Shown here in pieces: positions 8,844 to 31,350 of a stretch of 46,239 nt of DNA. Positions within the stretch are counted from its first letter, which is position 1; each line of letters starts with the position of its first letter. Made by a program: the position numbers and the translations under genes. Source of the stretch: Comamonadaceae bacterium (GTDB taxonomy: Bacteria; Pseudomonadota; Gammaproteobacteria; Burkholderiales; Burkholderiaceae_C); NCBI GenBank assembly GCA_947450255.1, contig CANFVA010000005.1, positions 1 to 46,239 of the forward strand. Direction: 5' to 3'. The notes beneath the pieces are model-generated. The model was not told the origin of the DNA. It saw only the letters and a list, made by a program, of their open reading frames with translations, and did not search any database.

Positions 8844-9404
8844 TTAACGGCTCTTGGCAGTCAGTTGGGTCAGGTACAACATGCGCAGGTCCTGCACCGT
8901 GCTCTTGTCCAGCGTCAGCGTGGTCTCGTAGGTATCGTCCCCACTGGGTGTGATGCTGACCAAGGTGGCGCCGTAAATGACGCCTTCGACTTTGCTGCGG
9001 AAGGTATCGTTTTGCACCACCATGTCGGCCACCGTGGCTGTGGCATCTAGACGCAGTCCGTATACCTGCTCGGCTAGCGAGCGGTAGGCATCGAGCTTGG
9101 CGGCACGGATTGCCATCAGGCGCTGTTGCGCCGGGGTTTTGTGGTTCTGGACGCTGATAACGGCGTAGCCGGTAGCGGTCAGGCTTTCACGCTTTTCGAC
9201 CAAAGGCAGATTGGGTACCAGCAGCTCACTGGGCACTTTGACCATGGCCGGGCGTTCGCTGGTGGCTTTGTCAGACGTGCCTTTGTCGGCCTCGGCGTCG
9301 TAGTTGAGGCTGATGCCGTCCATCCATTTTTGCAATGGCGCGGTTTGGCAGGCGCTCAGGGCGACGGCGGTTAACAGAATGGTGATCAATTTAGTAGCTT
9401 GCAT
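8844..9404 (-). CDS. flgP: FlgP-like outer-membrane lipoprotein (LPP20 family)
   Basis: 186 residues from ATG at 9404, with AAGGA seven bases ahead. MQATKLITILLTAVALSAC is a lipoprotein signal peptide with a lipobox at Cys19. The core ATGYAVISVQNHKTPAQQRLMAIRAAKLDAYRSLAEQVYGLRL is the LPP20/FlgP signature, followed by a beta-rich GVIYGATLVSITPSGDDTYETTLTL. In Vibrio and Campylobacter FlgP builds a basal disk or H-ring part at the outer membrane. It is the first gene of the flgP-flgT-LysM-fliK2-fhlB run and is preceded by a strong sigma-28 element. Confidence 0.85.
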   Translation of the reverse strand: MQATKLITILLTAVALSACQTAPLQKWMDGISLNYDAEADKGTSDKATSERPAMVKVPSELLVPNLPLVEKRESLTATGYAVISVQNHKTPAQQRLMAIRAAKLDAYRSLAEQVYGLRLDATATVADMVVQNDTFRSKVEGVIYGATLVSITPSGDDTYETTLTLDKSTVQDLRMLYLTQLTAKSR

Positions 9405-9432
9405 GCTCAATCCTTGAAGATAGTCCTTACAA

Positions 9433-9459
9433 ATATCGGCACCAAGGTACAAAGCTTGA
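9433..9459 (-). promoter_or_regulatory. Sigma-28 (FliA) promoter of flgP
   Basis: Minus strand TCAAGCTT, 11 bases, GCCGATAT: the best sigma-28 match in the window. Predicted start near 9426, only about 22 bases before the flgP ATG and just covering its AAGGA. It places flgP, flgT and probably the three genes after them in the late class. Confidence 0.8.
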
Positions 9460-9505: not shown

Positions 9506-12139
9506 TCATGCCGCCCGCCGTAGTGGATCGCCCTGCGATGCAGCCGCGGATGCGGGGTCTGCGTCGGGGGTGCGGGTGGGCAGGGCGGTGACCTGTGGTG
9601 CACTGAGCGCTGGTGCGCTGGCAGGGGCTGGCGCCTGCCCTGCGGCGGCGCGGTACCACTGCAAAGCCAGCGCATAGTCTTGCGCTGTGCCCTGGGCGTT
9701 GGCGTACATAGAGCCCAGGTTAAATTGCGCGGCACCATCGCCCAACATAGCAGCGCGCTGGTACCAGGCCAGGGCTTGCGCGGCATCGGCGGGCAGGCCT
9801 TGGCCGAAAAACTGCATCCGTCCCAAGGTGTAAAGCGCGTCGGCATCGTCTTGCTCGGCGGCTTGGTGCAACCAGGGCAGGGCTTGGGTGAAGCTGGCAA
9901 TCGCTTGATCGCCAAACGCCAATTGCCAGCCGAGGTTGAACTGGGCTTTTGCCAGGCCGCTCGCCGCCGCTTGGCGCAGCCAGTCCAGCGCTTGCGCCGG
10001 TTGTCCTTGGTGGCCTTGGTACAACGCCAGGTTGAAACAGGCCAGCGGGTAATGCTGCGCCGCAGCCTCGCGCAGCCATTGGCCCGCTTGTGCCACTTGG
10101 GTCTCGTTGTGTACACCGCCTTCCGGGGTAAGCAACAGGCTGACGGCCAGGTTGTTTTGCGCTGGGGCCAGGCCCGCTTGCGCGGCGCGCAGGTAGTGTT
10201 CTTGCGCCAGGGCGCTATCCTTTTCGCAGCCCAAACCACCTGCATAAAGCAGGCCCAGGTTGAAGTCGGCCAGCGCATCGCCCTGGGCACTGGCCTGCAG
10301 GTAGTTTTCCAGCAGGCGTGCGTAGTCGGTGGTGCTGGTGCCTTGCTCGGATGATTGGAGGTTCAAGCGCTCTTGCGCTGCCGGGTGGCCTTGTGCGGCG
10401 GCCAGTTCTAAGTAGGCCAATGCCGCCGTATCGTCGCGCAGCGCTGGTGGCCCTTCGGCCAGTAACACGGCCGCGGCGTATTGCGCGGCCACATCACCGC
10501 GTTGCGCCGCTTCGCGATAGAAGTGCAAGGCTTGCACAGGGTCTTGCGCAAGCCCAGTGCCGGTGGCGTACATCACGCCCAGGTTGTGCAGCGCGGCGGC
10601 GTTTTCCAGATCGGCGCTGGCCTGGTAGAGCGCGCGCACCTGCGGGTCGGCGCTGTCTTGGCTGGCGCGCAGCACAGCCAGATTGAACATGGCTTCGCTC
10701 ATGCCCTGGTCGGCCGCGTGTTGCCAGCAACTTTGTGCCGCTGGCAGGTCTTGCGCCACTCCCTGGCCTTGCGCCAGCGCTACGCCCTGGTTGAACAAGG
10801 CGCCGGCATGGCCTTGCGCGGCGGCCAGCGCGAAATAGTGGTGGGCCCGGGCTGCATCGTGCGCGCCGCCCTTGCCTTGGCTGAACAAAATGCCCAGGTT
10901 GTATTGCGCCAAGGTGTCGCCTTGGTCGGCCGCTAATTGGTACCACTGGCGGGCTAAGGTGAAGTCCTGGCTCACGCCTTGGCCCTGGCTGTACATCGCG
11001 CCCAAATTGCACTGCGCCAGCGCATGGCCCTGGTCAGCCGCCAGGTGCATCCATTGGCGCGCCTGGGTGCTGTTTTGGCTGACACCTTGGCCGATCAGGT
11101 ACATCAGCCCGACCTGAAACTGCGCTTGCGCCATGCCGCGCTCGGCGGCCATTTGGTACCACTGCAAGGCCTCGGCATAGTCTTGGGCCACGCCATAGCC
11201 GTTGGCGCTGAGCGTGCCCAGGTTGTATTGCGCTTGTGCATGGCCTAGGGCCGCGGCGGTGCGGTAGTGCACCAGGGCTTGCGCCATCGGGCCGGGGTTG
11301 TCTTCATCGTCTTCGCTGGCTTGGCCCTGGGCGAGGCCGCGGCCTGCATGGTCCACTTGGGCGCTAAGCACCGCCAGGTTGTAATGCGCATCGCCGTGAC
11401 CCTGTTCGGCCGCCAAGGTGAAATAGGACATGGCCAGTGACAAGTCCGGGGCAATGCCCTGGCCGTGGGCATACATCAGCCCCAGGTTGTATTGCGCCGG
11501 GGCATCGCCCTGGTCGGCAGCTTTGTGGTACCACTTGGCGGCCAGTTCGGCATCGGCTGGAAGTTCCGTGCCTTGTGATAGCAACAGACCCAATTGAAAT
11601 TGCGCATAGCTATGGCCTTGCACTGCCGCAGACTCCAGCCACTTGCGGGCAGCCACTAGGTCTTTGGCCACCCCCTCGCCTTGGAGCAACATGCTGGCCA
11701 GGTTGAATTGGGCAGTGGCATGGCCTTGCACCGCAGCGCGTTCAAACCAATAGGCCGCTTGCGCCGGGTCAGGTTCCACGCCTTGGCCGTTGGCGAACAT
11801 AAAAGCCAGATTGGTTTGCACATCGGGCAAGCCTTGGGCGGCGGCCAATTGGTACCAGTGCAGCGCCTGTGCGTGGTCTTGCTCCACACCCTGGCCATTG
11901 GCATACATATAGCCCAGGTTGTATTGCGCCGGCGCATAGTCTTGCGCTGCCGCCAAACGGTACCACTTCAAAGCTTCAGCGTAGTCTTGCACCACGCCCT
12001 GGCCGTTGGCATACATAAATCCCAGGTTGTTTTGCGCGGCGGCGTATTCCAGCGAGGCCAGCGGCCGCGAAATGCGCAAGGCATTGGCAAAGTCGCCGCG
12101 GCGGTAGGCGGCGTCGGCGTCGGCCAGCAGATTTTTCAT
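9506..12139 (-). CDS. Large Sel1-like repeat protein, about 22 repeats
   Basis: 877 residues, almost entirely Sel1-like repeats (TPR-type helix pairs) of mostly 36 residues, with the pattern AxAQYNLGxMYANGQGVxQDxxxALxWYxxAAxQG. I count about 22 units; a few are stretched or shortened, for example an acidic insertion near residue 270 (ASEDDEDNPGP). No signal peptide or membrane segment, so it is probably a cytoplasmic scaffold. The C-terminal 45 residues are Ala/Pro rich. ATG at 12139 has GGAG seven bases upstream. It lies between a small ORF and the flgP operon. Sel1 proteins generally mediate protein-protein contacts; partner and function here are unknown. Confidence 0.9.
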   Translation of the reverse strand: MKNLLADADAAYRRGDFANALRISRPLASLEYAAAQNNLGFMYANGQGVVQDYAEALKWYRLAAAQDYAPAQYNLGYMYANGQGVEQDHAQALHWYQLAAAQGLPDVQTNLAFMFANGQGVEPDPAQAAYWFERAAVQGHATAQFNLASMLLQGEGVAKDLVAARKWLESAAVQGHSYAQFQLGLLLSQGTELPADAELAAKWYHKAADQGDAPAQYNLGLMYAHGQGIAPDLSLAMSYFTLAAEQGHGDAHYNLAVLSAQVDHAGRGLAQGQASEDDEDNPGPMAQALVHYRTAAALGHAQAQYNLGTLSANGYGVAQDYAEALQWYQMAAERGMAQAQFQVGLMYLIGQGVSQNSTQARQWMHLAADQGHALAQCNLGAMYSQGQGVSQDFTLARQWYQLAADQGDTLAQYNLGILFSQGKGGAHDAARAHHYFALAAAQGHAGALFNQGVALAQGQGVAQDLPAAQSCWQHAADQGMSEAMFNLAVLRASQDSADPQVRALYQASADLENAAALHNLGVMYATGTGLAQDPVQALHFYREAAQRGDVAAQYAAAVLLAEGPPALRDDTAALAYLELAAAQGHPAAQERLNLQSSEQGTSTTDYARLLENYLQASAQGDALADFNLGLLYAGGLGCEKDSALAQEHYLRAAQAGLAPAQNNLAVSLLLTPEGGVHNETQVAQAGQWLREAAAQHYPLACFNLALYQGHQGQPAQALDWLRQAAASGLAKAQFNLGWQLAFGDQAIASFTQALPWLHQAAEQDDADALYTLGRMQFFGQGLPADAAQALAWYQRAAMLGDGAAQFNLGSMYANAQGTAQDYALALQWYRAAAGQAPAPASAPALSAPQVTALPTRTPDADPASAAASQGDPLRRAA

Positions 12140-12200
12140 GCGCGCACTCCGGCACGGTGCGCCAGCAGCGCGCGGTCTTGGGAGCGTTTGCGGACCAAGA

Positions 12201-12416
12201 TCATTCCTGGTGTTGGCTCAGCAAAGGCAAGGCCTGGTGCTGCACCGGGTGCGCCTGGTGTTCGACCGCATAGAGCTTTTGCCCGTGCGGCACATGCGCT
12301 TGGCGCGAAACGACCAGCTTGGTTTCGGCCAACCATTGGGCAGACGGTCCGCGCGCGGGATGGGCGGCGGCCTCCAAATGCTGGGCTTGGCTGGGTTGGT
12401 GTTTCACCTCGGTCAT
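12201..12416 (-). CDS. Small hypothetical protein (71 aa)
   Basis: ATG at 12416 is preceded by a strong GAGGAAA about five bases away, which is the main reason to call it. The sequence (MTEVKHQPSQAQHLEAAAH...LVVSRQAHVPHGQKLYAVEHQAHPVQHQALPLLSQ) is rich in His and Gln and has no membrane segment or known motif. It is 61 bases upstream of the large Sel1 gene and 155 bases downstream of the Trp-repeat gene. Not recognised. Confidence 0.5.
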   Translation of the reverse strand: MTEVKHQPSQAQHLEAAAHPARGPSAQWLAETKLVVSRQAHVPHGQKLYAVEHQAHPVQHQALPLLSQHQE

Positions 12417-12497
12417 GGCAGTTTCCTCATGCGGCACGGTGCAGGGCCTTGGCGCGGGTCCGTGATTTTTTTGACGCCTTCGGGCGTGGCAGGCAAT

Positions 12498-12523
12498 GCA
12501 TCGGTAGGGTAATGCAAGTTTTA
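12498..12523 (-). promoter_or_regulatory. Possible sigma-28 promoter ahead of the small ORF and large Sel1 gene
   Basis: Minus strand TAAAACTT, 10 bases, ACCGATGC. The spacer is one base shorter than at flgM, fliS and flgP and the -10 is imperfect. Predicted start near 12491, about 75 bases before the small ORF. Confidence 0.4.
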
Positions 12524-12571
12524 TGCCGTCGATAAGGCGGCTTTTTGCTTTTTTGAAGCGCTACCAGGCGG

Positions 12572-14047
12572 CTAGCTTGACGGCTTTTCCTGCAACAGTG
12601 TCGTAATGTCGGCGCTGTTTAAGTGGTGGATATTGAGCCCCTGGTGTTGCGCCACCAGGCTGGGATACCAGTGGGCGTCCAACTGCAAGTAAAACGCCGT
12701 GCTCCAAGGCAGCTGGGTCTGCGCGCTCAGGGTGGCCCAGTTCAGCCGATCGGCATAGGCGGCCAATAAGGCTTGGGACCAGGCAATGTGTGCGTTGGCG
12801 CTCAGGCGTTCCCAGTCCCAATCGTTGGCATGGCGCTCCAGTAAGGCGTCGCTCCAGGGCAGGGCGGCGCTGCTGCTGGGGCCGCTCCAGTCCCAATTGC
12901 GGGCAAATTGCGCCAGCAGTTCGCCGTCCCAGGGCAGGCCGCAATTCCAGCTCAGGCGGTCCCAGTCCCAGTAGTCTTGCAGTGCTTGCAACAGCGCTGT
13001 GCTCCAGGGCAGGGCCGGGTTTTCGCTCAAGGCGTCCCAATCCCAGGCTTGCAGCGGCAAGGGCAGCGCAGCCAGCGCAGGTGCTTGCAGCCAGGTCGGG
13101 TCGCTCCATTGCGGCAGCAATGCAGACCACGGCAGCGCCGGGTTGCGGCACAAAGCGGCGCTGTCCCAGCGCGCGGCCCAGGCGCTCAGCAGTTCTACGG
13201 TCCAGGGCAACTGGGTATTGGCGCTCAAGGCGGGCCAGTCCCAATAGTCGGCATAGGCAGCAATCAGTGCCTCGCTCCAGGGCAAGTTGGCTTGCTGGCT
13301 CAAGGCCTGCCAGTCCCAGCGTTGGGCATAGGCGGCGACCAGCGCTTCGCTCCAGCGCAGGCCGGGGTTGGCGCTGAGCCAGGTCCATTGCCAGCGGCTG
13401 GCGAAGCGCTCCACCAGCGCCGCATCGCCGGGTAAGGCGGTGTTGGCGCTCAGGCCGGTCCAGTCCCAGCGCTCCTGGTAATTTTCCAAGAGGCCTACGG
13501 TCCAGGGTAGGCCGGTGTTCCAACTCAGTGCGGTCCAGTCCCAGCGGTGCGCATTGGCCTGCACAAACGCCGCCGTCCAAGGCAGCTCGGCATTGCGGCT
13601 GAGCACCGCCCAGTTCCAGCGATAGACAAATTGTTCCAGCAAGGCCTGGCTCCAGGGCAGGCCGGGGTTGGTACATAAAGACTGCCAGTTCCAGCGGTCG
13701 CTATAGCGCTCTAGCAACGCGCCGGACCAGGGCAGAGCCGGGTTTTTGCTCAGCAGCTCCCAGTCCCATTGGTCGGCATAGGCGGCGATGTGTTCGTCCG
13801 TCCACAACAGCAGGCGGCTGGCGCTGAGCATGCGCCAGTCTTTGCGCGCACCCAGCGCTTCCAAGAGCGCGCCGTCGAGCGGGTAGTGCTGTTGCAGGCA
13901 GGCGGCAAACAGCGCAGGCCGGTCGCGGAAAAATTGCTGCGCCTGGCTTTCATGCAAGCCCGCCAGCGTGTGCGCGACCAGCTCCCCACGCTGACGCTCG
14001 AAAGCGCTGAGCGCGCCAGCTGCCGGTAGCACTTGTAACTGTCCCAT
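12572..14047 (-). CDS. Trp-rich 25-residue tandem-repeat protein
   Basis: 491 residues of unknown function. Residues 70-460 are fifteen tandem units, fourteen of exactly 25 residues and one of 41 (residues 295-335). Consensus: [DN]W-x2-LS-x-N-x2-LPW-[ST]-x2-LL-x2-[YAF]-x2-RW. Trp recurs at positions 2, 13 and 25, giving WDW or WNW at each junction; about one residue in ten is Trp. The N-terminal 69 residues look helical, and no signal or membrane segment is visible. ATG at 14047 has AAGGA five bases upstream and is two bases after the preceding stop. From memory, WDW-LS-NPN-type repeats occur in giant-virus proteins; I know no characterised bacterial member. Confidence 0.88.
   Translation of the reverse strand: MGQLQVLPAAGALSAFERQRGELVAHTLAGLHESQAQQFFRDRPALFAACLQQHYPLDGALLEALGARKDWRMLSASRLLLWTDEHIAAYADQWDWELLSKNPALPWSGALLERYSDRWNWQSLCTNPGLPWSQALLEQFVYRWNWAVLSRNAELPWTAAFVQANAHRWDWTALSWNTGLPWTVGLLENYQERWDWTGLSANTALPGDAALVERFASRWQWTWLSANPGLRWSEALVAAYAQRWDWQALSQQANLPWSEALIAAYADYWDWPALSANTQLPWTVELLSAWAARWDSAALCRNPALPWSALLPQWSDPTWLQAPALAALPLPLQAWDWDALSENPALPWSTALLQALQDYWDWDRLSWNCGLPWDGELLAQFARNWDWSGPSSSAALPWSDALLERHANDWDWERLSANAHIAWSQALLAAYADRLNWATLSAQTQLPWSTAFYLQLDAHWYPSLVAQHQGLNIHHLNSADITTLLQEKPSS
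12668..13840 (-). repeat. Tandem 75-bp coding repeats (15 units) of the Trp-rich protein
   Basis: Encodes residues 70-460 of the protein at 12572-14047. The repeats are imperfect at the DNA level, but phrases such as 'ccagtcccag' and 'ctccagggcag' recur every 75 bases. One unit (about 13041-13163) is 48 bases longer. Divergence between units implies old duplication, not recent expansion. Confidence 0.9.
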
Positions 14048-14049
14048 GC

Positions 14050-15381
14050 TTATCCTTGGACCAGCGGCGGCGCGCCCGCGTCCAGGGCCTCTTGCAGCGC
14101 TTGGCGGTAGCGTTCAATCTCGGTTTGCAAGTGGGCAGCTTGCTGGGCAAACCACACATCCCAGCGGCTTTGGGTGACCAGGGTGCGCCAGGTGGCACTT
14201 TGCAAGAGCCCTTGACGTTGCGCCTGCTGCTGCGTCAGCGTGTTTTGCAGGGCGCTTAGCTGCAGGGCCCATTGCGCTGGCGCGCGACTGGCGCCGCCGC
14301 TGCGGCCCGGGGGATTGGGGCCCTGTTCCAATTGCGCTTGCAGGTTTTGCAGGCCCCGCAAATCACTGGCCTGGTAACTGCGCTGCAAGCGCTGGAACAA
14401 GGCCTGCGCCAGGTGCTTGTCCTGCTCCGAGTCCATGCGGTCCGGGTGGCATTGCATGGCCAGTTTGCGGTACATGCGCTTGAGTTCTTGTTGCGCTGGT
14501 GCATCGAGCTCGGGCGGCGCATCCAGGCCCTGTGCGTCTGCGTGGCTATCGGTATAGCGGCTGAAACTTTCATCGGCTTGCTGCGCTTTGGCGGCGCGCT
14601 CGGCGCCACCAAAGCGCGCATGCATCTGCGCCAGGTACTGGCGTTTGAGGTCTAAAAAATCGCGCAGCAAAGTACCGATCGCCGCGTCCTGCTGGCGGTC
14701 AAAGCTTTGGATGGTGCGCTGCATTTCATCCAACTCCGCTTGGAGCGCCAGGCTGTGGCAGTGCAGGAGTTCGCTTTGCCAGGCGGCGGTGCGCGCCTGC
14801 ACATCCGCGCTGAGCAGCAGCGCCTGTGCGCTTGCGGGGGCCACCACGGCGTGCGCTGCCTCGGTCGGTGCCGCTGGCGCTGCGGCGCAGTCCGGCGCAA
14901 TCGGGTTTGTTGTGCCTGGGGTCACGCCTTCGGTGGTCTGCGCGGCCAACGCGGTGATGCCTTGCAAGCAACGTGCAGCCAAGTCCAAATCGCTTTGGCG
15001 CACGACACCGGCAAAGTCGTCGCGCAGCAGGGTACTCAATTCGGCAAGGGCACCACTGAGTACCGTGTGGCCATCGACCACGCAGACGCTGGTTTGCAGA
15101 ATCGGCGCCGTCGCGTCCATCCATCGCAGTTCGCCCCCGGCCGCGCTGAGGCGCTCCCAGGCGATGGCCGATTGGCGGTTGATCGCGGTATCCGGCACTA
15201 GCAGGCACAGCGGCACACCGCGCCGGGCCACTTGCAGCAGCATTTCAAACCATGGGCGGCCGCAGTCGCGCGCCAGCGCGCAGACGACGCGGTGGCGGGC
15301 GGCGGCCAGCAGCGACTGCACGGCGCTGGGTGCATCGGCAAAGTAGGCCTGGTAGTCGGGGTCCGGGGAGGGAGAGAGCAT
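14050..15381 (-). CDS. Degenerate PLD-like domain, coiled coil and J-domain fusion
   Basis: 443 residues. Residues 1-125 resemble half a phospholipase-D-like fold (QSLLAAARHRVVCALA...VARRGVPLCLLVPD...LQTSVCVVDGHTVLSGALAEL), but where an active enzyme has HxKxxxxD this has LQTSVCVVD, so His and Lys are lost. Residues about 185-270 are a coiled-coil-like helix. Residues 298-345 are a J-domain with the HPD motif at 312-314 (YRKLAMQCHPDRMDSEQD), which in this family stimulates DnaK ATPase. The C-terminal 80 residues are helical and Gln rich. It is two bases from the Trp-repeat gene and 47 after the Sel1 gene, suggesting one operon. An adaptor role is inferred. Confidence 0.8.
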   Translation of the reverse strand: MLSPSPDPDYQAYFADAPSAVQSLLAAARHRVVCALARDCGRPWFEMLLQVARRGVPLCLLVPDTAINRQSAIAWERLSAAGGELRWMDATAPILQTSVCVVDGHTVLSGALAELSTLLRDDFAGVVRQSDLDLAARCLQGITALAAQTTEGVTPGTTNPIAPDCAAAPAAPTEAAHAVVAPASAQALLLSADVQARTAAWQSELLHCHSLALQAELDEMQRTIQSFDRQQDAAIGTLLRDFLDLKRQYLAQMHARFGGAERAAKAQQADESFSRYTDSHADAQGLDAPPELDAPAQQELKRMYRKLAMQCHPDRMDSEQDKHLAQALFQRLQRSYQASDLRGLQNLQAQLEQGPNPPGRSGGASRAPAQWALQLSALQNTLTQQQAQRQGLLQSATWRTLVTQSRWDVWFAQQAAHLQTEIERYRQALQEALDAGAPPLVQG

Positions 15382-15428
15382 GGGCGGGGCGCTAGCGCAA
15401 AGGCGGTTCTGCGGGACCGGCAGGCAGC

Positions 15429-16784
15429 TTAGTCAAAGCCGTTGAATTGATCCTGTATGCATTTGCGCGCCAGGTCTTGCGCTTGCGCGATTTGCGACGG
15501 TGTCATTTGCTGGGCCACAAATTCGCGGCCGCTGGCGGCCTGCGCGTGGCCGCTGACCGCGCCTACGTTAAACCACATATGGGCGCGCACATAGTCTTGC
15601 AACACGCCCATGCCATTGGCGTACAGCCAGCCCAGCGCCGCCTGGGCGTCGGCCTGTCCGCCCTGTGCTGCTTTGCGGTAACACTGCAAAGCACGCTGGT
15701 AATCGGGTGCCTGGTCCGCGCCTTCCTGGTAGAGCGCGCCCAGGTTGTACCAAGCCAGCACATCGCCCTGGTCGGCGGCCAGTTGCAACCACTGCATTGC
15801 GACCGTACGGCTGGCCAAGGTGCCTTGGCCGTTGGCAATCATCACGCCGAGGTTGTACTGCGCCTGCGCATCGCCCTGGTCAGCGGCCAGTTGGTACCAG
15901 GCCAGCGCGGCGGCATCGTCCTGGGCCACGCCCTGGCCGGTGGCATACATCAGGCCGAGGTTGAACTGGGCTGCCGCGTCGCCCTGTTCAGCGGCTTTTT
16001 GGTACCAGAACAGGGCTTTGTCGGTATTCCCATCGGCGCCTTGGCCGCTGCTATAGAGCACGCCCAGGTTGTATTGCGCAGCGGCATCGCCCAGCGCAGC
16101 GGCACGTTCGTAGCAGTCCAGGGCTTTGTCCCGGTCCACCGGCATGCCTTGGCCGTTGGAATACAAAAATCCCAGGTTGAACAAGGCGTGTAAATGGTTT
16201 TGGGCTGCGGCCAGCTGGTACCAGTGACAGGCTTGTTGCAAGTCTTGCGGCACGCCGTGGCCGTTGGCATACATCACGCCCATGCCGTACTGGGCTGCGG
16301 CATCTCCGGCGGCTGCGCCGTTTTGGTAGCACTGCAAGGCCAGCCCGAAGTCTTGCGGCACGCCCTGGCCGTTGGCGTACATCACGCCTAGGCCGCGCTG
16401 GGCGCTGGTGTCGCCTTGCTCGGCAGCAGCTTGGTACCACTGAAGCGCTTGCTGGTAGTCGCGCGCCGTGCCCTGGCCATTGGCGTACATCACCGCCAGA
16501 TTGGTTTGGGCATAGGACAAGCCTTGTTCAGCGGCAGCGCGGTACCACTTATGGGCTTGCGCAAAATCTTGCGGCACACCCTGGCCGTGCGCGTACATGA
16601 CCGCCAAATTGGACTGGGCCTGGGGCACGCCATGTTCAGCCGCTTGGCGGTAGCAGTCCAGCGCACGCGCGAAATCCTGCTCCACCCCCAGGCCTTGGGC
16701 GTACATCTGGCCCATATTGGTGAGCGCGGCAAGTTGCAAGTCGGGAGCGAGTTCGGTCACACCAGTGTTCTTCGGGTTGTGCAC
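15429..16784 (-). CDS. Sel1-like repeat protein, about 11 repeats; first gene of the island operon
   Basis: 451 residues from GTG at 16784, with AAGG five bases upstream; a nearby ATG is out of frame. About eleven 36-residue Sel1-like repeats (QAQSNLAVMYAHGQGVPQDFAQAHKWYRAAAEQGL and variants) fill residues 18-415. The last repeat ends in RAHMWFNVGAVSGH and the tail REFVAQQMTPSQIAQAQDLARKC, the common C-terminal cap of this family. No signal peptide is visible. The sigma-54 element at 16833-16848 lies about 50 bases upstream. It heads the Sel1, PLD/J-domain and Trp-repeat genes. Likely a protein-interaction scaffold; partners unknown. Confidence 0.9.
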   Translation of the reverse strand: MHNPKNTGVTELAPDLQLAALTNMGQMYAQGLGVEQDFARALDCYRQAAEHGVPQAQSNLAVMYAHGQGVPQDFAQAHKWYRAAAEQGLSYAQTNLAVMYANGQGTARDYQQALQWYQAAAEQGDTSAQRGLGVMYANGQGVPQDFGLALQCYQNGAAAGDAAAQYGMGVMYANGHGVPQDLQQACHWYQLAAAQNHLHALFNLGFLYSNGQGMPVDRDKALDCYERAAALGDAAAQYNLGVLYSSGQGADGNTDKALFWYQKAAEQGDAAAQFNLGLMYATGQGVAQDDAAALAWYQLAADQGDAQAQYNLGVMIANGQGTLASRTVAMQWLQLAADQGDVLAWYNLGALYQEGADQAPDYQRALQCYRKAAQGGQADAQAALGWLYANGMGVLQDYVRAHMWFNVGAVSGHAQAASGREFVAQQMTPSQIAQAQDLARKCIQDQFNGFD

Positions 16785-16832
16785 CCATGCCTTATCGGGG
16801 AAAGCCTGCGGCGAGGTGCTGTGCTGGGATTA

Positions 16833-16848
16833 TGCAGTTTGCGTACCA
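16833..16848 (-). promoter_or_regulatory. Sigma-54 promoter of the Sel1/J-domain/Trp-repeat operon
   Basis: Minus strand TGGTACGCAAACTGCA keeps GG and GC exactly ten bases apart, with the -24 TGGTAC and -12 CTGCA close to consensus. Predicted start near 16822, giving a 38-base leader to the GTG at 16784. It is divergent from the FleQ-like activator gene. Confidence 0.7.
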
Positions 16849-16932: not shown

Positions 16933-16967
16933 ACCAGTGAACTGTCTGAAAAATGACACTTACTGGT
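16933..16967. promoter_or_regulatory. Long imperfect palindrome overlapping the activator promoter
   Basis: The left arm ACCAGTGAACTGTC and right arm GACACTTACTGGT are nearly complementary around TGAAAAAT. The right end touches the -10 box at 16967, so a protein bound here would block transcription of the FleQ-like gene. Autoregulation or another repressor is possible. Confidence 0.55.
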
Positions 16968-17037: not shown

Positions 17038-18177
17038 ATGTCGCGAAACGCTATCAATTTTATTGGTGAAAGTGATGCCATCCGGGCCATCCGGGACCTG
17101 CTCCCTGTGGTGGCGGCATCGAGTTCCACCGTGCTGATTACGGGGGAGAGCGGCACCGGCAAAGAGATTGTGGCGCGTTCGCTACACGACTTGTCCCACC
17201 GCGCCAACGCCAATTTTGTGCCCATCAATTGCGCGGCGATTCCCAAGGACCTGATCGAAAGCGAGTTGTTCGGCCACCGCAAAGGCGCCTTTACCGGCGC
17301 AGTGACGGACCGGGTAGGGCGCTTCGAACTGGCGCACAACGGTTCCATCTTCCTGGACGAGATCGGCGACCTGCCGCTGGAGTTGCAGGTCAAGCTGCTG
17401 CGGGTCTTGCAAGAGCGGGTGATTGACCCGGTGGGCGGCACCAAGCCGATACCGATCGATGTGCGCGTCATTGCCGCCACGCACCGCGACTTGGAGGCCG
17501 AAATCGCCGCCGGGCGCTTTCGCGAGGACTTGTATTACCGCCTCAATGTGCTGCCCCTTAATACACCGCCTTTGCGCGAACGCGCCTCGGATGTGCCTTT
17601 GTTGCTGCAGTTTTTTGCCAAGCACCACGCCGGCGCCGGCGAGAAGCCGATTACGTTTGCGCCGGATTTCACCTATGCCATGCAGGCCTACCAATGGCCG
17701 GGCAATGTGCGCGAGCTGTCCAATTTGATCGACCGCTTCAGCACCTTGTTTGCCGGTCAGTGCCTGGAGCTGAAAGATTTTTCTAAGAGCCTGTTGCCCA
17801 AGGGCATGCTGGCTTACAAGGCCTTGGCCGATTCGGGCGAGTTGCCGCAGATGGATCCGGCGCTGGCTTCCGGCCTATTTTCAGATGGCCCCACTTCTGG
17901 TGGTTTGTTCGATGAGGTGTCAGACGATGACGAGGCGCTGGTCCAAGACGAGCCCAACCAGGTCGAGCAAATGACGTTTATGTCGCAGGCGCTTCCGGTC
18001 TTGCCGCCCGAAGGCTTGTCGCTCAAGCACCGCCTGGCCGAAATCGAGCGCGATTTGATTGCCCAGGCGCTGAGCCGCACCAATGGCAATGTGTCGCAGA
18101 CGGCGCGCATCCTGAACGTACAGCGCACTACCCTGATCGAAAAAATCCAAAAATTCGGCCTGCGCGAAGGCGTTTAA
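17038..18177 (+). CDS. Sigma-54-dependent flagellar activator, FleQ-like, no receiver domain
   Basis: 379 residues. It starts directly with the AAA+ domain: Walker A GESGTGKE (36-43), the sigma-54 contact loop GAFTGA (83-88), Walker [10 protein letters not shown] (103-111), sensor/arginine region [13 protein letters not shown] (162-174) and PGNVREL. A long acidic linker (about 255-335) precedes a Fis-type helix-turn-helix ([25 protein letters not shown], about 350-375). There is no phosphorylatable receiver, so activity should depend on level, ligand or partner. FleQ of Pseudomonas binds c-di-GMP partly through an Arg-Asn pair after Walker A; here that site reads ARSLH. Its likely targets are the sigma-54 promoters at flgB, flgA, flhA and the divergent island. 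Confidence 0.9.
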
Positions 18178-18206: not shown

Positions 18207-19247
18207 TTACTGGCCGTCGGGTGACTTGCCGGTGTTTTGGATACGCGGGTACTGCACCATTTTTTCGACAGGTTTTTCCGGCGCTTTAGGCGCTGCAGCG
18301 GGTGCGGAGCCGGGTGGGGCTACCGGCATGGCAGGTTTCACGCTGGCCTCGGCCGCTTTGAGCTGGCGTACCAAGGCCTCGGCTTCTTTGCGCACCGCTG
18401 CCGGGTCCGGCCGCGCGGGCGCCGGGCTGCCGACAGCGCGCACCTGATTGCTCAGATTACTAATCGCGCTGGCCTGGGCTTGCAATTTGCCATCCAGGTC
18501 TTTGATCAGCTTGGCCACATCCGGCGCCTTGTCTTTATCCTTGTCATGGCTTGGCTTGGCGATCGAGTCCGCGGCCGTTTGCACGCCGCGCATGACTTCA
18601 TCGAGGCGCAGTTCGATCTTGGTTTGCGCGCTGACGATGGCGTCTTGCTTGCTCGCGATCTCGCGCAGCGCCTCGCCATGCCCGCTGAATAATTCCAGCG
18701 ATTCATCCATGGCGATCACCCGTTTACCCACCGCGATCAGCATGGCATCAGCCTGGGCGACCCGCTGCTGCAAGCGAAAGGACATGAATGCAAACACACT
18801 CATGGACAAGACCATCAGCAGGCCGAACACTGCCAGGACGATGATGAGGTACATCTTTTGCCCGGCATAGCTTTCGATCAGCTGGGTGGATGCGCCATGC
18901 ATATCGCCCGCTGCTTTGGCCGCCATGCCAGCGGCCCGGTTGGCTAGCTGGGCGGAGTCCAACATCGTGGAACGCATTTCCGCCATTTCCGCATCTTCCA
19001 CCGGTGGCACGTGGTGTTCGGGGGCGTGTTGCGATTCCTCGGGGTCCGTGCCGCCGTGCAGCGCGCCGCCTTCGTTGCCATGTTCGCTGTCGGCATGGTC
19101 TGGCTCTGCGTGCACTTCTTCGTGCAGCACCGGTTCGTTGGGGCCCTCGTGCGCAGTTGCTTCGCTGGCAGCGGCGGGCGCAGCGCCGCCAATGGCTTCG
19201 ATGGCGGAAGCTTCGTCCGGTGTGAGTGCAGTGGGGGTATCGGCCAT
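18207..19247 (-). CDS. Acidic single-span membrane protein with coiled coil, unknown function
   Basis: 346 residues, not recognised. Residues 1-90 are acidic and rich in Ala, Glu and His (HEGPNEPVLHEEVHAEPDHADSEHG). One transmembrane helix spans about 132-156 (MYLIIVLAVFGLLMVLSMSVFAFMSF). A helical, probably coiled-coil region follows (about 158-290), then a Pro/Ala-rich tail. It is the last gene of the operon that begins with fliK and runs through flhB, 34 bases after the 149-aa gene. The position suggests a flagellar or polar-placement accessory role, but no domain supports a specific one. Confidence 0.75.
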   Translation of the reverse strand: MADTPTALTPDEASAIEAIGGAAPAAASEATAHEGPNEPVLHEEVHAEPDHADSEHGNEGGALHGGTDPEESQHAPEHHVPPVEDAEMAEMRSTMLDSAQLANRAAGMAAKAAGDMHGASTQLIESYAGQKMYLIIVLAVFGLLMVLSMSVFAFMSFRLQQRVAQADAMLIAVGKRVIAMDESLELFSGHGEALREIASKQDAIVSAQTKIELRLDEVMRGVQTAADSIAKPSHDKDKDKAPDVAKLIKDLDGKLQAQASAISNLSNQVRAVGSPAPARPDPAAVRKEAEALVRQLKAAEASVKPAMPVAPPGSAPAAAPKAPEKPVEKMVQYPRIQNTGKSPDGQ

Positions 19248-19281
19248 AGTTACTTACCTCTTGGTGGCAGGGGGCTGGCGT

Positions 19282-19731
19282 TTAGCCGCCCTTCATCAGC
19301 GCATCAAGCGCCTTGAGTTGTTCGCGGATCGTGTCGTTCTCAATTTTGAGTTGGATCACGCGGGCAGGGAAATCCATTTCGACCATTTCTTCGGTTTCAA
19401 ACTCCGCTTCCTGTGGGACGGGCTGTGCCGCGGCGTTCGCACTGGCGGCGGAGGAACCTGCCGCTACAGACGGCGCGATGGCGACGGTCTTGAGTTCTTT
19501 TTTTTCAGCCGGTGGCACCTTGATGATATTGCTCGCCGGTGCGCTTGGACGTTGTAACAGCACCGTATTTTCCGGGGCGATTTCCAACTCTTCTTCGGCA
19601 ATGTTTTCGTCTTTGGCAACGCGCCGGATGTCGGTGCCTACATGCGCCGACTTGCTTTTGGCCACATTGCTGCCCTCGGGCATTTCGACATGGTGCGGCG
19701 CGTGGCTAGGGAAAAATTCGGGTTCACTCAT
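19282..19731 (-). CDS. Hypothetical soluble acidic protein downstream of flhB
   Basis: 149 residues, not recognised. Acidic and Ala/Pro rich with low complexity in the middle, and a C-terminal helix (VEMDFPARVIQLKIENDTIREQLKALDALMKGG, about 117-149) that looks like a short coiled coil. No signal or membrane segment. Its start overlaps the stop of the 505-aa gene by four bases, so the two are translationally coupled. It may be a partner of its membrane-anchored neighbours. Confidence 0.7.
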   Translation of the reverse strand: MSEPEFFPSHAPHHVEMPEGSNVAKSKSAHVGTDIRRVAKDENIAEEELEIAPENTVLLQRPSAPASNIIKVPPAEKKELKTVAIAPSVAAGSSAASANAAAQPVPQEAEFETEEMVEMDFPARVIQLKIENDTIREQLKALDALMKGG

Positions 19732-21245
19732 CGCTTGTTCTCTCCACGCCGTTGCCCGGTGCCTACCAGATTGTCTTGCGAAAACTGCTCTTTCATGAAG
19801 CGCGCCGAGCGGATCTGCGGGTCTTTGGGTACCCCCGGGCTATCGGCATAGGCGCTGGCATCGCCCAGGGACCCAAAGGGACCGGACACCACGGAAAACT
19901 GCAAGCTGGACACATTGGGCAGGTAATTGGCCACGATGCGCGCGCGCTTGAGATTGGGATGCGCTTGCAGCCAGGCGTTGGCCTCGGCATAGCTCGGGAC
20001 AATGGTGTGCTGGACCAGGAAGGTACCCGCCGGCATTTGGCGCACCCAGGCCTGACCGGCTTGGTTTTGCGCGATCGTGGTCTCATCGGGCGCTTTGACG
20101 GCTTCTTTGACTTCCTTGGCCACCGGTGCGGGCTCGGGGACCGGCGCTGGCGCTGGCGCTTTGTTGCGCAAGCCTGAGGTGGGAACAATAGTCTCCACTT
20201 CCTCGGGCGCTTTGGGCGCCGCGCTGATGGCCGCTGGGGTGGGCGTGGCCGCTGGTGTAGTCGCGCTGGCGCCACTTGGTGCCGCGGCTTGGGCGGGCGC
20301 AGGTAACGCGGCAGAGGCCGGCGTAGCCGTTGCACTGCTGGCAACGGGGCTGTCGGCGGGTGCGGTGTGGGCGTTGTCGCCGCGCAGCAAACTGCGCAAG
20401 TCCTGCACGGCTTTATCGCCGGTGGGGATGACCCCGTAGAGCAGGGCGACGCCAAAGCCGCACAGCAACAAAAGTACCGCGGCGATAGCAGCCCAAAGCC
20501 CTATTTTGCGGACCGGTTGGCGGGTAGCTTCCTCGCTGGCTTGTGCGGCATCTGCGGGCTTGCTCTGGGCAGGCGGTGCGCTGGGTGCAGGTTCGGCCAC
20601 CAGCTCGGGCAGGGACATGGGGTGGGGCGTTGGTTTTTTCTGGGGCGTAATCTGGCGCAGCAGCGCGCCCACGACGCCTTCGCGGCCCTGTGCTCGCGCT
20701 TGCTCCAACAAGACCTCGGCCTGCTCAGGCGTCGGCGGCTCGATGTCCCAACTCAGGATGCGCCGGCCAAAGGCGGCCAGCAATTTTTGCTTTTGGCTGG
20801 ATGCGTTAAACAGCATCACGACCCGGATGTTGGCACCAGGGAAATGTTGCACCAGGCGCGCCAACAGTTGGATTTCGTTATCTGGCAGCGCGCCGGCGTC
20901 GTGCACGATCCAGATTTTGGGCGGCGCGTTGTGGAACTTGGCACCCATCGCGTCTTCAATCGAATAGTCTTGCAGCACCTCGTTAAAGCGCGTGATCAGC
21001 GCATCGGCGCTGGCAGGAAAGCACACTTCCAGGCCGATATGCGGCGCCGCTTCGCGCAAGCGGGCGACCAGTAGTTTGCCGTAATGGTCCAAGATGGCAT
21101 CAAAACCGCTGACCAGTGACAGGCTCATATTGTCCTGCACCAGCGCCGACACGTAGCCCTCTAGGCGCATGCGGTCGGCTACGCGGAACAACAGCGGTTG
21201 TACGCCTGCAATGCTGTCATCGCCAGGAAATTGATGTTCGGTCAT
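19728..21245 (-). CDS. Membrane-anchored protein with degenerate ATPase-like N-domain and SPOR-like C-domain
   Basis: 505 residues. Residues about 1-200 resemble an AAA-type domain of the ExeA/DamX sort (PKIWIVHDAGALPDNEIQLLARLVQHFPGANIRVVMLFNAS, Walker-B-like) but no Walker A loop is visible. A transmembrane helix spans about 248-272, followed by a long Ala/Pro-rich stretch. The C-terminus (about 410-475) is SPOR-like (AGTFLVQHTIVPSYAEANAWLQAHPNL...FSVVSGPFGSLGDASAYA). SPOR domains bind denuded septal or polar peptidoglycan, which would suit positioning of a polar flagellum. It overlaps flhB by four bases. The architecture resembles DamX; the function here is inferred. Confidence 0.72.
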   Translation of the reverse strand: MTEHQFPGDDSIAGVQPLLFRVADRMRLEGYVSALVQDNMSLSLVSGFDAILDHYGKLLVARLREAAPHIGLEVCFPASADALITRFNEVLQDYSIEDAMGAKFHNAPPKIWIVHDAGALPDNEIQLLARLVQHFPGANIRVVMLFNASSQKQKLLAAFGRRILSWDIEPPTPEQAEVLLEQARAQGREGVVGALLRQITPQKKPTPHPMSLPELVAEPAPSAPPAQSKPADAAQASEEATRQPVRKIGLWAAIAAVLLLLCGFGVALLYGVIPTGDKAVQDLRSLLRGDNAHTAPADSPVASSATATPASAALPAPAQAAAPSGASATTPAATPTPAAISAAPKAPEEVETIVPTSGLRNKAPAPAPVPEPAPVAKEVKEAVKAPDETTIAQNQAGQAWVRQMPAGTFLVQHTIVPSYAEANAWLQAHPNLKRARIVANYLPNVSSLQFSVVSGPFGSLGDASAYADSPGVPKDPQIRSARFMKEQFSQDNLVGTGQRRGENKR

Positions 21246-29241: not shown

Positions 29242-31350
29242 ATGAGCACGCTGACCCTGTCGACTATCCGACAAAATTTGTCCAAGTTCAATTTCAATGA
29301 CCTGAGCATTCCTGGCTTGGTGTTGTTGATCATGGGCATGTTGGTCATTCCCCTGCACCCCATGGTGCTGGACGTGCTGTTCACCTTCAACATCGCGTCT
29401 GCGCTCTTGATCATCATGATCGCCATCAAGGTGCGCAAGCCGCTGGAATTTTCCTCCTTTCCCTCGGTGCTGCTGTTTGCCACCATGCTGCGGTTGGCGC
29501 TCAACGTGGCCTCGACCCGGGTGATTTTGGTCAACGGCCACGAAGGCCATGAGGCGGCGGGCAAAGTCGTGGCCGCCTTTGGAGAGTTTGTGATTGGCGG
29601 CAATTACGTCGTCGGTTTCATTATTTTTGCGATCTTGATGATCGTGAACTTCTTTGTCGTGACCAAGGGCGCAGGCCGCGTCTCCGAGGTCAATGCCCGC
29701 TTTACCTTGGACGCCATGCCCGGCAAGCAAATGGCGATCGATGCCGACCTGAACGCCGGCGTGATCGACCAGGATACGGCCCGCGTGCGGCGTGCTGAAC
29801 TCGGCCAGGAGTCGGACTTTTTCGGCTCCATGGACGGTGCCTCTAAGTTCGTCAGTGGCGACGCCATGGCCGGGCTGTTGATTTTGATCATCAACCTGGT
29901 CGGCGGCCTGGCCATCGGTATTGGCCAGCACGGCTTGTCGCTGAGCGAAGCCGGTCGGATTTATTCCTTGCTCACTATCGGTGACGGCCTGGTCGCCCAG
30001 ATTCCCTCCTTGTTGCTGTCGCTGGCCACTGCCATCGTGGTGACCCGGGTGACCACCACCGAGTCCATGACCGAGCAGGCCTCCACCCAATTGGGCAACC
30101 CTACGGCCTTGTTCGTGACCTCCTGCATCATGGCCGTCTTGGGCATGGTGCCGGGCATGCCGCATTTGGTATTTATCTTTTTGTCTGCGGGCAGCGCCGG
30201 TCTGGGCTGGATGTTGCTGCGCCGCGATGCGGCTGCCGATTCGCCCGAAAAAGTCGCCGAGGCCGCCGCCGTGGCGGCTGCCGAACAGCCTAAAGAACTT
30301 GATTGGGAAGATCTGGACCAGGTCGATCTGGTGGGCCTGGAAATCGGCTACGGTTTGATTCCGCTGGTCAATGCCGAAACCGGCGGCCAGTTGATGACGC
30401 GCGTCAAAGGCGTACGCAAGAAATTGTCGGCCGAACTGGGCTTTTTGATCCAGCCGGTGCGCATCCGCGACGCCTTGAGCATCGACCCGGACAGCTACCA
30501 CATTGTCCTCAAAGGCGTGGTGCGCGGACGCGGCAAAGTCAAAGTCGGCCGCGAGATGGCCATTAACCCCGGCCAGGTCTACGGCAGCCTCGAGGGCACG
30601 CCCACCACCGAACCGGCCTTTGGCTTGGAAGCGGTTTGGATCGAGCCCTCACAGCGCGACCACGCCCGTGCCCTGGGCTACACCGTGGTCGATGCGGCCA
30701 CCGCTGTCGCCACCCATTTGAATAAAGTCCTGCGCGACAACGCCGCCGATCTGCTCAGCCACGATGAAGTGCAGCAGTTGCTCGACAAGCTGACGGCCAA
30801 GTCGCCCAAGCTGGTGGAAGACCTGGTGCCGTCCAAGCTCTCGCTGGGCGTGCTCACCCGCACACTGCAAGGCCTGCTCAATGACTCGGTGTCCATCCGC
30901 GATATGCGCACGATTGTGGAAACCCTGTCCGAAGTGAGTGCCCGCACCCAAGAGCCCGAACAATTGACCGCCTTGCTGCGCCCGCGCCTAGGCCGCATGA
31001 TTGTGCAAAACTTGCTCGACGAAAAAGAAACCCTCTCGGTAATGACACTGGATCCTGGCCTGGAGCAATTGCTGCACAACGTGCTGCAACAACAAAGCCA
31101 GAATCAGAACGTCGTCATGGAGCCCGGTCTGGCCGAACGTTTGTTTGGCGCTTTGCGGCAAGGATCGAAAGAAGTGGAAGAACAGGGCCAGGCCGCGGTT
31201 TTGGTGGTCTCGCCGGCGATTCGCCCCTGGCTGGCCAAAGCCGTACGCCACCGCGTCAGCGAATTGGTGGTTCTGTCTTACGCCGAAATTCCGGATGACC
31301 AATCGATCCAGGTCATTCACACGGTGAACGCGGAAACCCAGCAGGCCTGA
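29242..31350 (+). CDS. flhA: Flagellar export gate protein FlhA
   Basis: 702 residues, full length. The N-terminal half carries about eight membrane helices with the FHIPEP signature region (LLFATMLRLALNVASTRVILVNGHEG, VVTKGAGRVSEVNARFTLDAMPGKQMAIDADLNAGVID). The C-terminal cytoplasmic domain (from about 350) is the substrate- and chaperone-docking part, with LIQPVRIRDALSIDPDSYHIVLKGV and the ending ELVVLSYAEIPDDQSIQVI. FlhA is the major gate of the flagellar type III system. First gene of the plus-strand flhA-flhF-flhG-fliA run. Confidence 0.98.
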   Translation: MSTLTLSTIRQNLSKFNFNDLSIPGLVLLIMGMLVIPLHPMVLDVLFTFNIASALLIIMIAIKVRKPLEFSSFPSVLLFATMLRLALNVASTRVILVNGHEGHEAAGKVVAAFGEFVIGGNYVVGFIIFAILMIVNFFVVTKGAGRVSEVNARFTLDAMPGKQMAIDADLNAGVIDQDTARVRRAELGQESDFFGSMDGASKFVSGDAMAGLLILIINLVGGLAIGIGQHGLSLSEAGRIYSLLTIGDGLVAQIPSLLLSLATAIVVTRVTTTESMTEQASTQLGNPTALFVTSCIMAVLGMVPGMPHLVFIFLSAGSAGLGWMLLRRDAAADSPEKVAEAAAVAAAEQPKELDWEDLDQVDLVGLEIGYGLIPLVNAETGGQLMTRVKGVRKKLSAELGFLIQPVRIRDALSIDPDSYHIVLKGVVRGRGKVKVGREMAINPGQVYGSLEGTPTTEPAFGLEAVWIEPSQRDHARALGYTVVDAATAVATHLNKVLRDNAADLLSHDEVQQLLDKLTAKSPKLVEDLVPSKLSLGVLTRTLQGLLNDSVSIRDMRTIVETLSEVSARTQEPEQLTALLRPRLGRMIVQNLLDEKETLSVMTLDPGLEQLLHNVLQQQSQNQNVVMEPGLAERLFGALRQGSKEVEEQGQAAVLVVSPAIRPWLAKAVRHRVSELVVLSYAEIPDDQSIQVIHTVNAETQQA

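Follow-up and report, generated by a model that had tools for sequence, protein, structure and literature searches.

A block of five genes inside a bacterial flagellar gene cluster forms one unit, and we judge the chances to be about even that its products make a cytoplasmic scaffold of a J-protein and solenoid proteins that recruits DnaK to flagellar clients, where complex formation and function are what we infer. The block, called the cassette below, lies in a 46,239-nucleotide stretch of DNA from a Comamonadaceae bacterium (the window; contig C5 of a draft genome of 2.7 Mb and 85.6% completeness), which by Pfam carries a polar-type flagellar cluster. A sequence-only reading of this DNA had placed five genes between flgP and a FleQ-like gene; all five open reading frames (ORFs) are indeed present on the minus strand. 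Starting from the FleQ-like gene, the first encodes Sel1-A (16784..15429, 451 residues), a Sel1-repeat solenoid with Pfam Sel1 matches in 11 stretches (E 3e-102). The second product, PLD/J (15381..14050, 443 residues), has a PLD-like N-terminus without the catalytic Lys, a helical middle, a J-domain with the HPD motif and C-terminal helices. It is followed by a tryptophan-repeat (W) protein (14047..12572, 491 residues) of about 16 units, mostly of 25 residues, predicted to form an alpha-solenoid; by a small His-rich protein (12416..12201, 71 residues from a conserved ATG; core QAQHLEAAAH ... HVPHGQ); and by Sel1-B (12139..9506, 877 residues; Pfam Sel1 E 1e-135, 18 stretches), the last gene before flgP. 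The block is thus predicted to hold three repeat solenoids, the W protein by structure prediction and the two Sel1 proteins by family.

We sampled 100 genomes of the genus, searched them with a profile of the W protein and fetched the surroundings of the matches. The profile matched 33 genomes, two of which (G610 and G599) hold their W gene elsewhere, while the other 31, the window's included, carry the block; across these, identity of the W protein to that of the window ranges from 83% down to 40%. The divergent FleQ-like gene followed by Sel1-A, PLD/J and W is seen in 31 of the 32 fetched cassette loci, the exception (L063) being a contig that starts inside W, and a second contig of the same genome (L065) ends in W. 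Sel1-B follows W in 27 of the 32 (the contigs of L059, L060, L065, L066 and L082 stop in or near W) and flgP follows Sel1-B in 23, and all 31 cassette genomes have the FleQ-like gene on a contig with the cassette. Two loci that are not flagellar cassettes (L061 and L067) were excluded from these counts, and two that are the same contig (L003 and L068) were both counted in the promoter, dyad, selection and spacing tallies. Spacing is tight: PLD/J and W are separated by a median of -4 bp, a 4-bp overlap, over 33 rows (2 bp in the window, where Sel1-A and PLD/J are 47 bp apart), and the gap from Sel1-B to flgP is 20–141 bp (median 58, 24 loci). The small gene was present in 28 of 29 intervals between W and Sel1-B, in four of four clades, with one contig counted twice; the single miss (L072) does have a BLAST match, and BLAST itself misses the small gene in several loci. 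The earlier proposal that repeated co-occurrence of these genes across genomes would mark a system is therefore borne out, with order and neighbours conserved in 31 genomes, the block all-or-none where the site is complete, and the whole tied to one flagellum type.

Purifying selection acts on all five genes. Over eight non-independent pairs of relatives, omega was 0.05–0.09 for Sel1-A, 0.11–0.29 for PLD/J, 0.07–0.22 for W and 0.07–0.16 for Sel1-B, and it was 0.02–0.08 for the small gene in five of the pairs; one Sel1-B pair (L056/L065, omega 0.31) was left out as a mispairing with a truncated locus. With values of 0.02–0.29, spurious genes are excluded. Compared by eye, the trees of the cassette and of the flagellum agree in their four main clades. 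One draft genome (G593) has two window-type loci with the cassette on different contigs (L056 and L085), for which contamination (estimated at 3%) or two flagella are possible.

Absence of the cassette was followed with FlgP and FlhA. FlgP was searched in 71 genomes, namely the 67 without W, G610, G599 and two W-positive drafts. Among the 67, seven gave a match, one of them distant at 46%; the six near matches comprise three empty sites (G614, G627 and G604), two sites at the end of a contig where Sel1-B is still next to flgP, and a contig that ends at flgP. In the 63 genomes with neither cassette nor near FlgP, FlhA matched in 54 and not in nine; its identity to the window was 95–96% in three drafts, whose site we did not find, and 39–57% in 51 (best row; mostly 48–50%). 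These 51 would have a different flagellum type, and their lowest partial matches perhaps belong to another export system. None of the 51 has the cassette, and G610 and G599, with their other W proteins, are among them. The window-type flagellum is found in about 40 of the 100 genomes: 31 with W, two more with Sel1-B, three truly empty and four that we leave unassigned. In the genus sample, then, the cassette goes with one of two flagellum types. As an observation on its own, the split of the genus between types whose FlhA is mostly only 48–50% identical suggests replacement of the flagellar system.

These patterns bear on the idea that the five genes are operon passengers, kept by linkage while they serve some unrelated process in the cytoplasm. 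Such a role would fit the three genomes in which the flagellar cluster persists without the cassette, and also our finding no function for tryptophan-repeat proteins in database and literature listings; yet selection constrains every gene, the one of 71 residues included, and the genes are inherited as a block in association with one flagellum type. We consider passengers very unlikely.

The distribution favours a simple history. In the 239 other genomes of the family search, FlgP matched in eight; seven matches are near and come from five genera. All seven of these outgroup genomes have a divergent FleQ beside flgP, with no W or PLD/J profile match in the 6.6–19.9 kb available. In the three in-group and seven outgroup sites, 269–387 bp separate the first aligned residue of FleQ from that of FlgP, too little to hold the cassette; three outgroup loci (L145–L147) have 3–4 kb of other sequence beyond FleQ. 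W itself was matched only in the window both by the profile, among 299 genomes of the family (best five or fewer candidates scored per genome), and by the single sequence, among 300 genomes of the order. In an outgroup-rooted tree, the empty-site genomes nest inside the cassette-bearing clade, above the L062/L064 and L068-group branches, with support of 100 at the separating split and a weak 63 for their exact sister group. The matrix is partial, with many incomplete rows and between 11 and 41 sequences for each gene, and L058 is oddly placed with L065; on this matrix, one gain and one loss of the whole block is the shortest history. The cassette was probably inserted once.

The PLD/J protein suggests what kind of activity the cassette might have. 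The window copy matches Pfam DnaJ above cut-off (E 5e-7) and PLDc_2 under it (E 8e-4), the latter reaching E 2.8e-18 in a relative outside the cassette. We aligned 26 PLD/J proteins, 25 from cassettes plus that of L061, and at E<=0.01 found DnaJ in 26 and PLDc_2 in 16. The marks of a J-domain co-chaperone, the HPD motif and the DnaJ profile, are both there, with HPD in all 26. The HxKx4D motif of an active PLD/HKD enzyme is broken in the cassette copies, where Lys is absent in 25 of 25, His is kept in 10 and Asp in 25; in L061 it is intact. Conservation of HPD alongside loss of the PLD Lys suggests that the cassette copies have kept a binding role and not a catalytic one. A profile of the PLD/J family matches the Nuc endonuclease 1byr (E 2.5e-10) and FAM83B (E 5e-4). 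The FAM83 pseudo-PLD anchors likewise use a non-catalytic PLD-like domain to hold a partner, but they are vertebrate kinase anchors and the match to FAM83B is weak. We know of no J-domain in FAM83 proteins. In the family, PLD/J searches matched 120 of 299 genomes; among the matches listed other than the window, each covers J, PLD or the stretch between, and none covers both.

The W protein has no significant match in Pfam, NCBIfam or the PDB. Its model (pLDDT 80, pTM 0.64, from a two-sequence alignment) gives each repeat, mostly 25 residues long, two short helices. Foldseek returned nothing from the PDB at E<=0.001 and 45 viral models at that threshold (best 1.4e-17; full-length TM-scores modest, 0.2–0.6), seven of which are named 'tryptophan repeat gene family' (best of these 2.5e-15), and W matches PHROG 3532 at E 8e-12. 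The 25-residue period, the viral models and the phage annotation together identify a tandem W-containing solenoid repeat. Fold and phage-match annotation therefore liken it to the tryptophan repeat gene family of entomopoxviruses, a Bacillus phage and giant-virus relatives, with the difference that here the repeat protein has a fixed place next to a J-protein among flagellar genes.

The sequence-only reading had also proposed that the products act as one cytoplasmic assembly, and a cytoplasmic location would fit: a simple hydropathy scan found no membrane or signal peptide-like stretch in the five window proteins, with no 19-residue window above 1.22 on the Kyte-Doolittle scale and a maximum of 1.05 within the first 40 residues. 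The assembly itself we would picture with a dedicated J-domain co-chaperone at the core of the scaffold. The dead-PLD half and helical middle of PLD/J may serve as a docking and dimerisation platform with the W solenoid as direct partner, and the two Sel1 solenoids would bind flagellar clients or a pole landmark. The HPD motif of PLD/J would then bring DnaK to these clients, and the scaffold as a whole might aid or police the building of the flagellar base, at about the stage of FlgP and FlgT. The cassette would be co-transcribed with flagellar genes. Conserved histidines in the small protein (12201..12416, minus strand) might mean metal binding.

Known systems offer partial parallels. By analogy, the nearest precedent is SflA of Vibrio alginolyticus, which indicates that such modules can act on flagella: as described in the accessible part of PMC7226244, it combines a TPR/Sel1-like fold with a J-domain and keeps lateral flagella repressed in the absence of FlhF and FlhG. 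The likeness lies in a TPR/Sel1-like solenoid coupled to a J-domain in the control of flagellation. SflA is, however, in the same source, a single Vibrio-specific protein that crosses the membrane once, has its repeat domain in the periplasm and is encoded outside the flagellar cluster, whereas the cassette encodes five soluble-looking proteins inside it; that part of PMC7226244 describes no counterpart of the PLD and W parts. We rejected the cassette as an SflA on architecture and topology, as its J-domain and Sel1 repeats reside on separate proteins (Pfam) and a signal sequence with one transmembrane helix is seen in none of the five window proteins (hydropathy).

A looser kinship would make the cassette a negative or spatial regulator of flagellar number, a brake of the SflA kind working with FlhF and FlhG and split over several soluble proteins. 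Repression by the Vibrio modules when FlhF and FlhG are missing (PMC7226244, as far as available) speaks for this, as do the flhF-like and flhG-like genes in the same window. It is countered by the membrane topology, periplasmic repeats, outside location and Vibrio restriction given for SflA in that source, and by the soluble look of the cassette proteins, the likeness being one of described modules; such a brake appears quite unlikely to us.

Returning to the proposed DnaK-recruiting scaffold, two further comparisons are useful. RcbA and RcbB of Vibrio vulnificus are repeat-domain proteins, predicted to be cytoplasmic, that localise to the flagellar pole (PMC12282931, seen in part), and so resemble the cassette as predicted-cytoplasmic repeat proteins tied to a flagellum; they differ in having TPR and diguanylate cyclase parts, and the accessible portion of that paper describes no J-domain, PLD or W repeats for them.

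MotX shares Sel1 repeats with the cassette as a flagellar protein, and flgP and flgT are neighbours of the cassette. MotX, FlgP and FlgT are exported envelope proteins; Sel1-A and Sel1-B differ from them in lacking a signal peptide-like stretch. The NCBIfam MotX model matches Sel1-B (E 5e-38, 130.7 bits) and Sel1-A (E 7e-31, 107.3 bits) against a cut-off of 330, and with scores that far below it and no such stretch, neither was accepted as MotX. NCBIfam added nothing specific for the five genes.

PLD/J and W also occur as a pair away from flagella. In G610 (L061 6768–9678, G610:C255), a PLD/J with intact HxKx4D overlaps a very regular W gene; the two are 25% (E 1e-28) and 40% identical to the window copies and, by reading, lie after an SSB-like gene. 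We found no flagellar reference gene in this 11-kb stretch, and the FlhA of G610 is of the other type; the pair may be an unrecognised mobile two-gene module. A remnant pair in another family (G800) consists of a PLD/J C-terminus and a W N-terminus beside a gene read as transposase-like. At E<=1e-5, five plasmids and two phages carry W proteins, and on a viral contig one stands beside a gene read as recombinase-like; no PLD/J is annotated beside W in the three plasmid regions looked at. On the Salinibacter ruber plasmid pSR116 (L088 7914–14226), two ORFs match the W profile strongly, one of them annotated as ankyrin repeat, and they adjoin PD-(D/E)XK nuclease and UvrD helicase genes. Queried with the outside W and PLD/J proteins, the class gave matches in 2 of 369 genomes and the phylum in 16 of 249, the window's included each time, with no match spanning PLD and J other than the window's two pieces. 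Of the scans of viral contigs, one yielded two PLD-only relatives, one a single W relative and one nothing; among plasmids and phages, the outside PLD/J found PLD-only matches and the outside W the same records as before or fewer.

From the loss of catalytic residues in the cassette copies, which sets the direction of descent, the cassette PLD/J and W genes probably descend from a pair of mobile type outside flagella whose PLD looked active. A fuller history would start from a two-gene mobile-type module, an active PLD fused to a J-domain together with a W-repeat solenoid like the W proteins of insect viruses and phages. Once captured by a flagellar operon, this module would have lost its enzyme, acquired two Sel1 scaffolds and a small His-rich protein, and turned into a machine that recruits Hsp70 specifically for the flagellum and has no described relative; taken as a whole, this history is rather doubtful.

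The same material can be turned towards protection: the cassette could be an anti-phage or stress module switched on with motility, for instance against flagellum-using phages, as a domesticated mobile PLD-J and W pair that does not act on the flagellum. The intact pair after the SSB-like gene, the remnant beside a transposase-like gene, the W proteins on plasmids, on phages and beside a recombinase-like gene, and the nuclease and helicase neighbours on the Salinibacter plasmid all lean this way. So do PADLOC matches of the PtuA1 model to Sel1-A (E 3e-7) and Sel1-B (E 2e-5) over about 50 residues and of the outside PLD/J to MkoC (E 3e-6) and DrmC (E 4e-6), but these are short and may reflect only a shared repeat or PLD fold. 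The window PLD/J and W have no PADLOC match below E 0.06, and among PADLOC systems the cassette showed partial matches only and no full protein set. With a fixed position and tree-like descent over the whole clade, and with the PLD Lys lost in 25 of 25 cassette copies, a protective module seems unlikely.

Control signals around the cassette give a mixed picture. A dyad, TGTC-N8-GACA (16943..16958, unstranded), lies between the divergent FleQ-like gene and Sel1-A and is a candidate enhancer site for the activator. Of 33 orthologous intergenic regions, among which one contig counts twice, 31 have it (all but those of L062 and L064), and it can also be read by eye in the three empty sites, so that it belongs to the activator region and not to the cassette. 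As a regulon-wide motif the dyad was rejected, given 12 matches at one mismatch or fewer in the window against 11.55 expected; of two exact copies in the window, the second, at 29258, is inside the start of flhA. A plain scan for sigma-54-type sites was uninformative (81 matches with three mismatches or fewer against 91.7 expected). Before Sel1-A, a sigma-54-like -24/-12 site (16833..16848, minus strand; TTGGTACGCAAACTGCA) matches 11 of 13 positions and scores in 10 of 33 regions, all from close relatives, where simple base shuffles per region, not dinucleotide ones, gave a mean of 2.7 and a maximum of 11. A second such site (12513..12528, minus strand; CGGCATAAAACTTGCA, three mismatches) precedes the small gene and Sel1-B; among 29 regions, 18 have their best match at this aligned position, and 21 of the 29 intervals between W and Sel1-B hold some site with at least 10 of 13 positions (shuffle mean 1.2, maximum 5). 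The window's own interval has another place with an equal or higher score, and L058, L062 and L064 have no good second site. The suggestion that three close genes follow one sigma-54 promoter thus stands as to spacing and the presence of a site, but the promoter is poorly conserved, and two putative transcription units, the second running into flgP, are more likely.

Several observations weigh against a flagellum-dedicated DnaK-recruiting scaffold. The flagellar location does not prove a flagellar target. In G614, G627 and G604 FleQ adjoins flgP directly, so the cassette is not essential for having the cluster, and the G610 pair exists outside flagella. The J-domain match of the window copy spans positions 14–51 of the 63 in the profile and leaves the first helix of the Pfam model uncovered, while the fold prediction for PLD/J was poor (pLDDT 46), was not used and served for no fold search. 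Two loci, L062 and L064, have neither the dyad nor the second sigma-54-like site. The precedent is itself weakened, as deleting sflA in wild-type Vibrio left flagellation and motility unchanged (PMC7226244, accessible part).

Were the scaffold reading true, some flagella would have their own cytoplasmic chaperone-scaffold unit, tryptophan-repeat proteins would gain a first functional foothold, and a second, unrelated case of a possible Hsp70 partner in flagellar control would stand beside SflA. We found no paper on this gene set in the open-licence PMC literature. The data suggest an undescribed flagellum helper whose role is now testable, and the same flagellar cluster with and without the block provides a natural experiment.

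The surroundings in the window are as follows (Pfam). On one side the order is flgD, a rod gene, flgA, a gene for an FlhB C-terminal domain, a weak FliK-like gene, flgT (its FlgT_C score just under the Pfam cut-off), flgP and then the five genes; flgP (8844..9434, minus strand; LPP20 family, E 7e-9) is the marker of the window flagellum type. Past the five genes stand the FleQ-like sigma-54 activator (17038..18177, plus strand; AAA+ and Fis-type helix-turn-helix; Sigma54_activat E 2.7e-71), three genes without a match, flhB, fliR, fliP, fliM, fliL and fliK. The other strand carries flhA, an SRP54-type (flhF-like) gene, a ParA-type (flhG-like) gene, a sigma-70 family gene that we take from its position to be FliA-like, and motB. 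The three genes between the FleQ-like gene and flhB (18207–21245, minus strand; 346, 149 and 505 residues), which have no Pfam match, include two with one strong hydrophobic stretch, and they have many relatives at 31–89% identity, in part also in outgroup genera.

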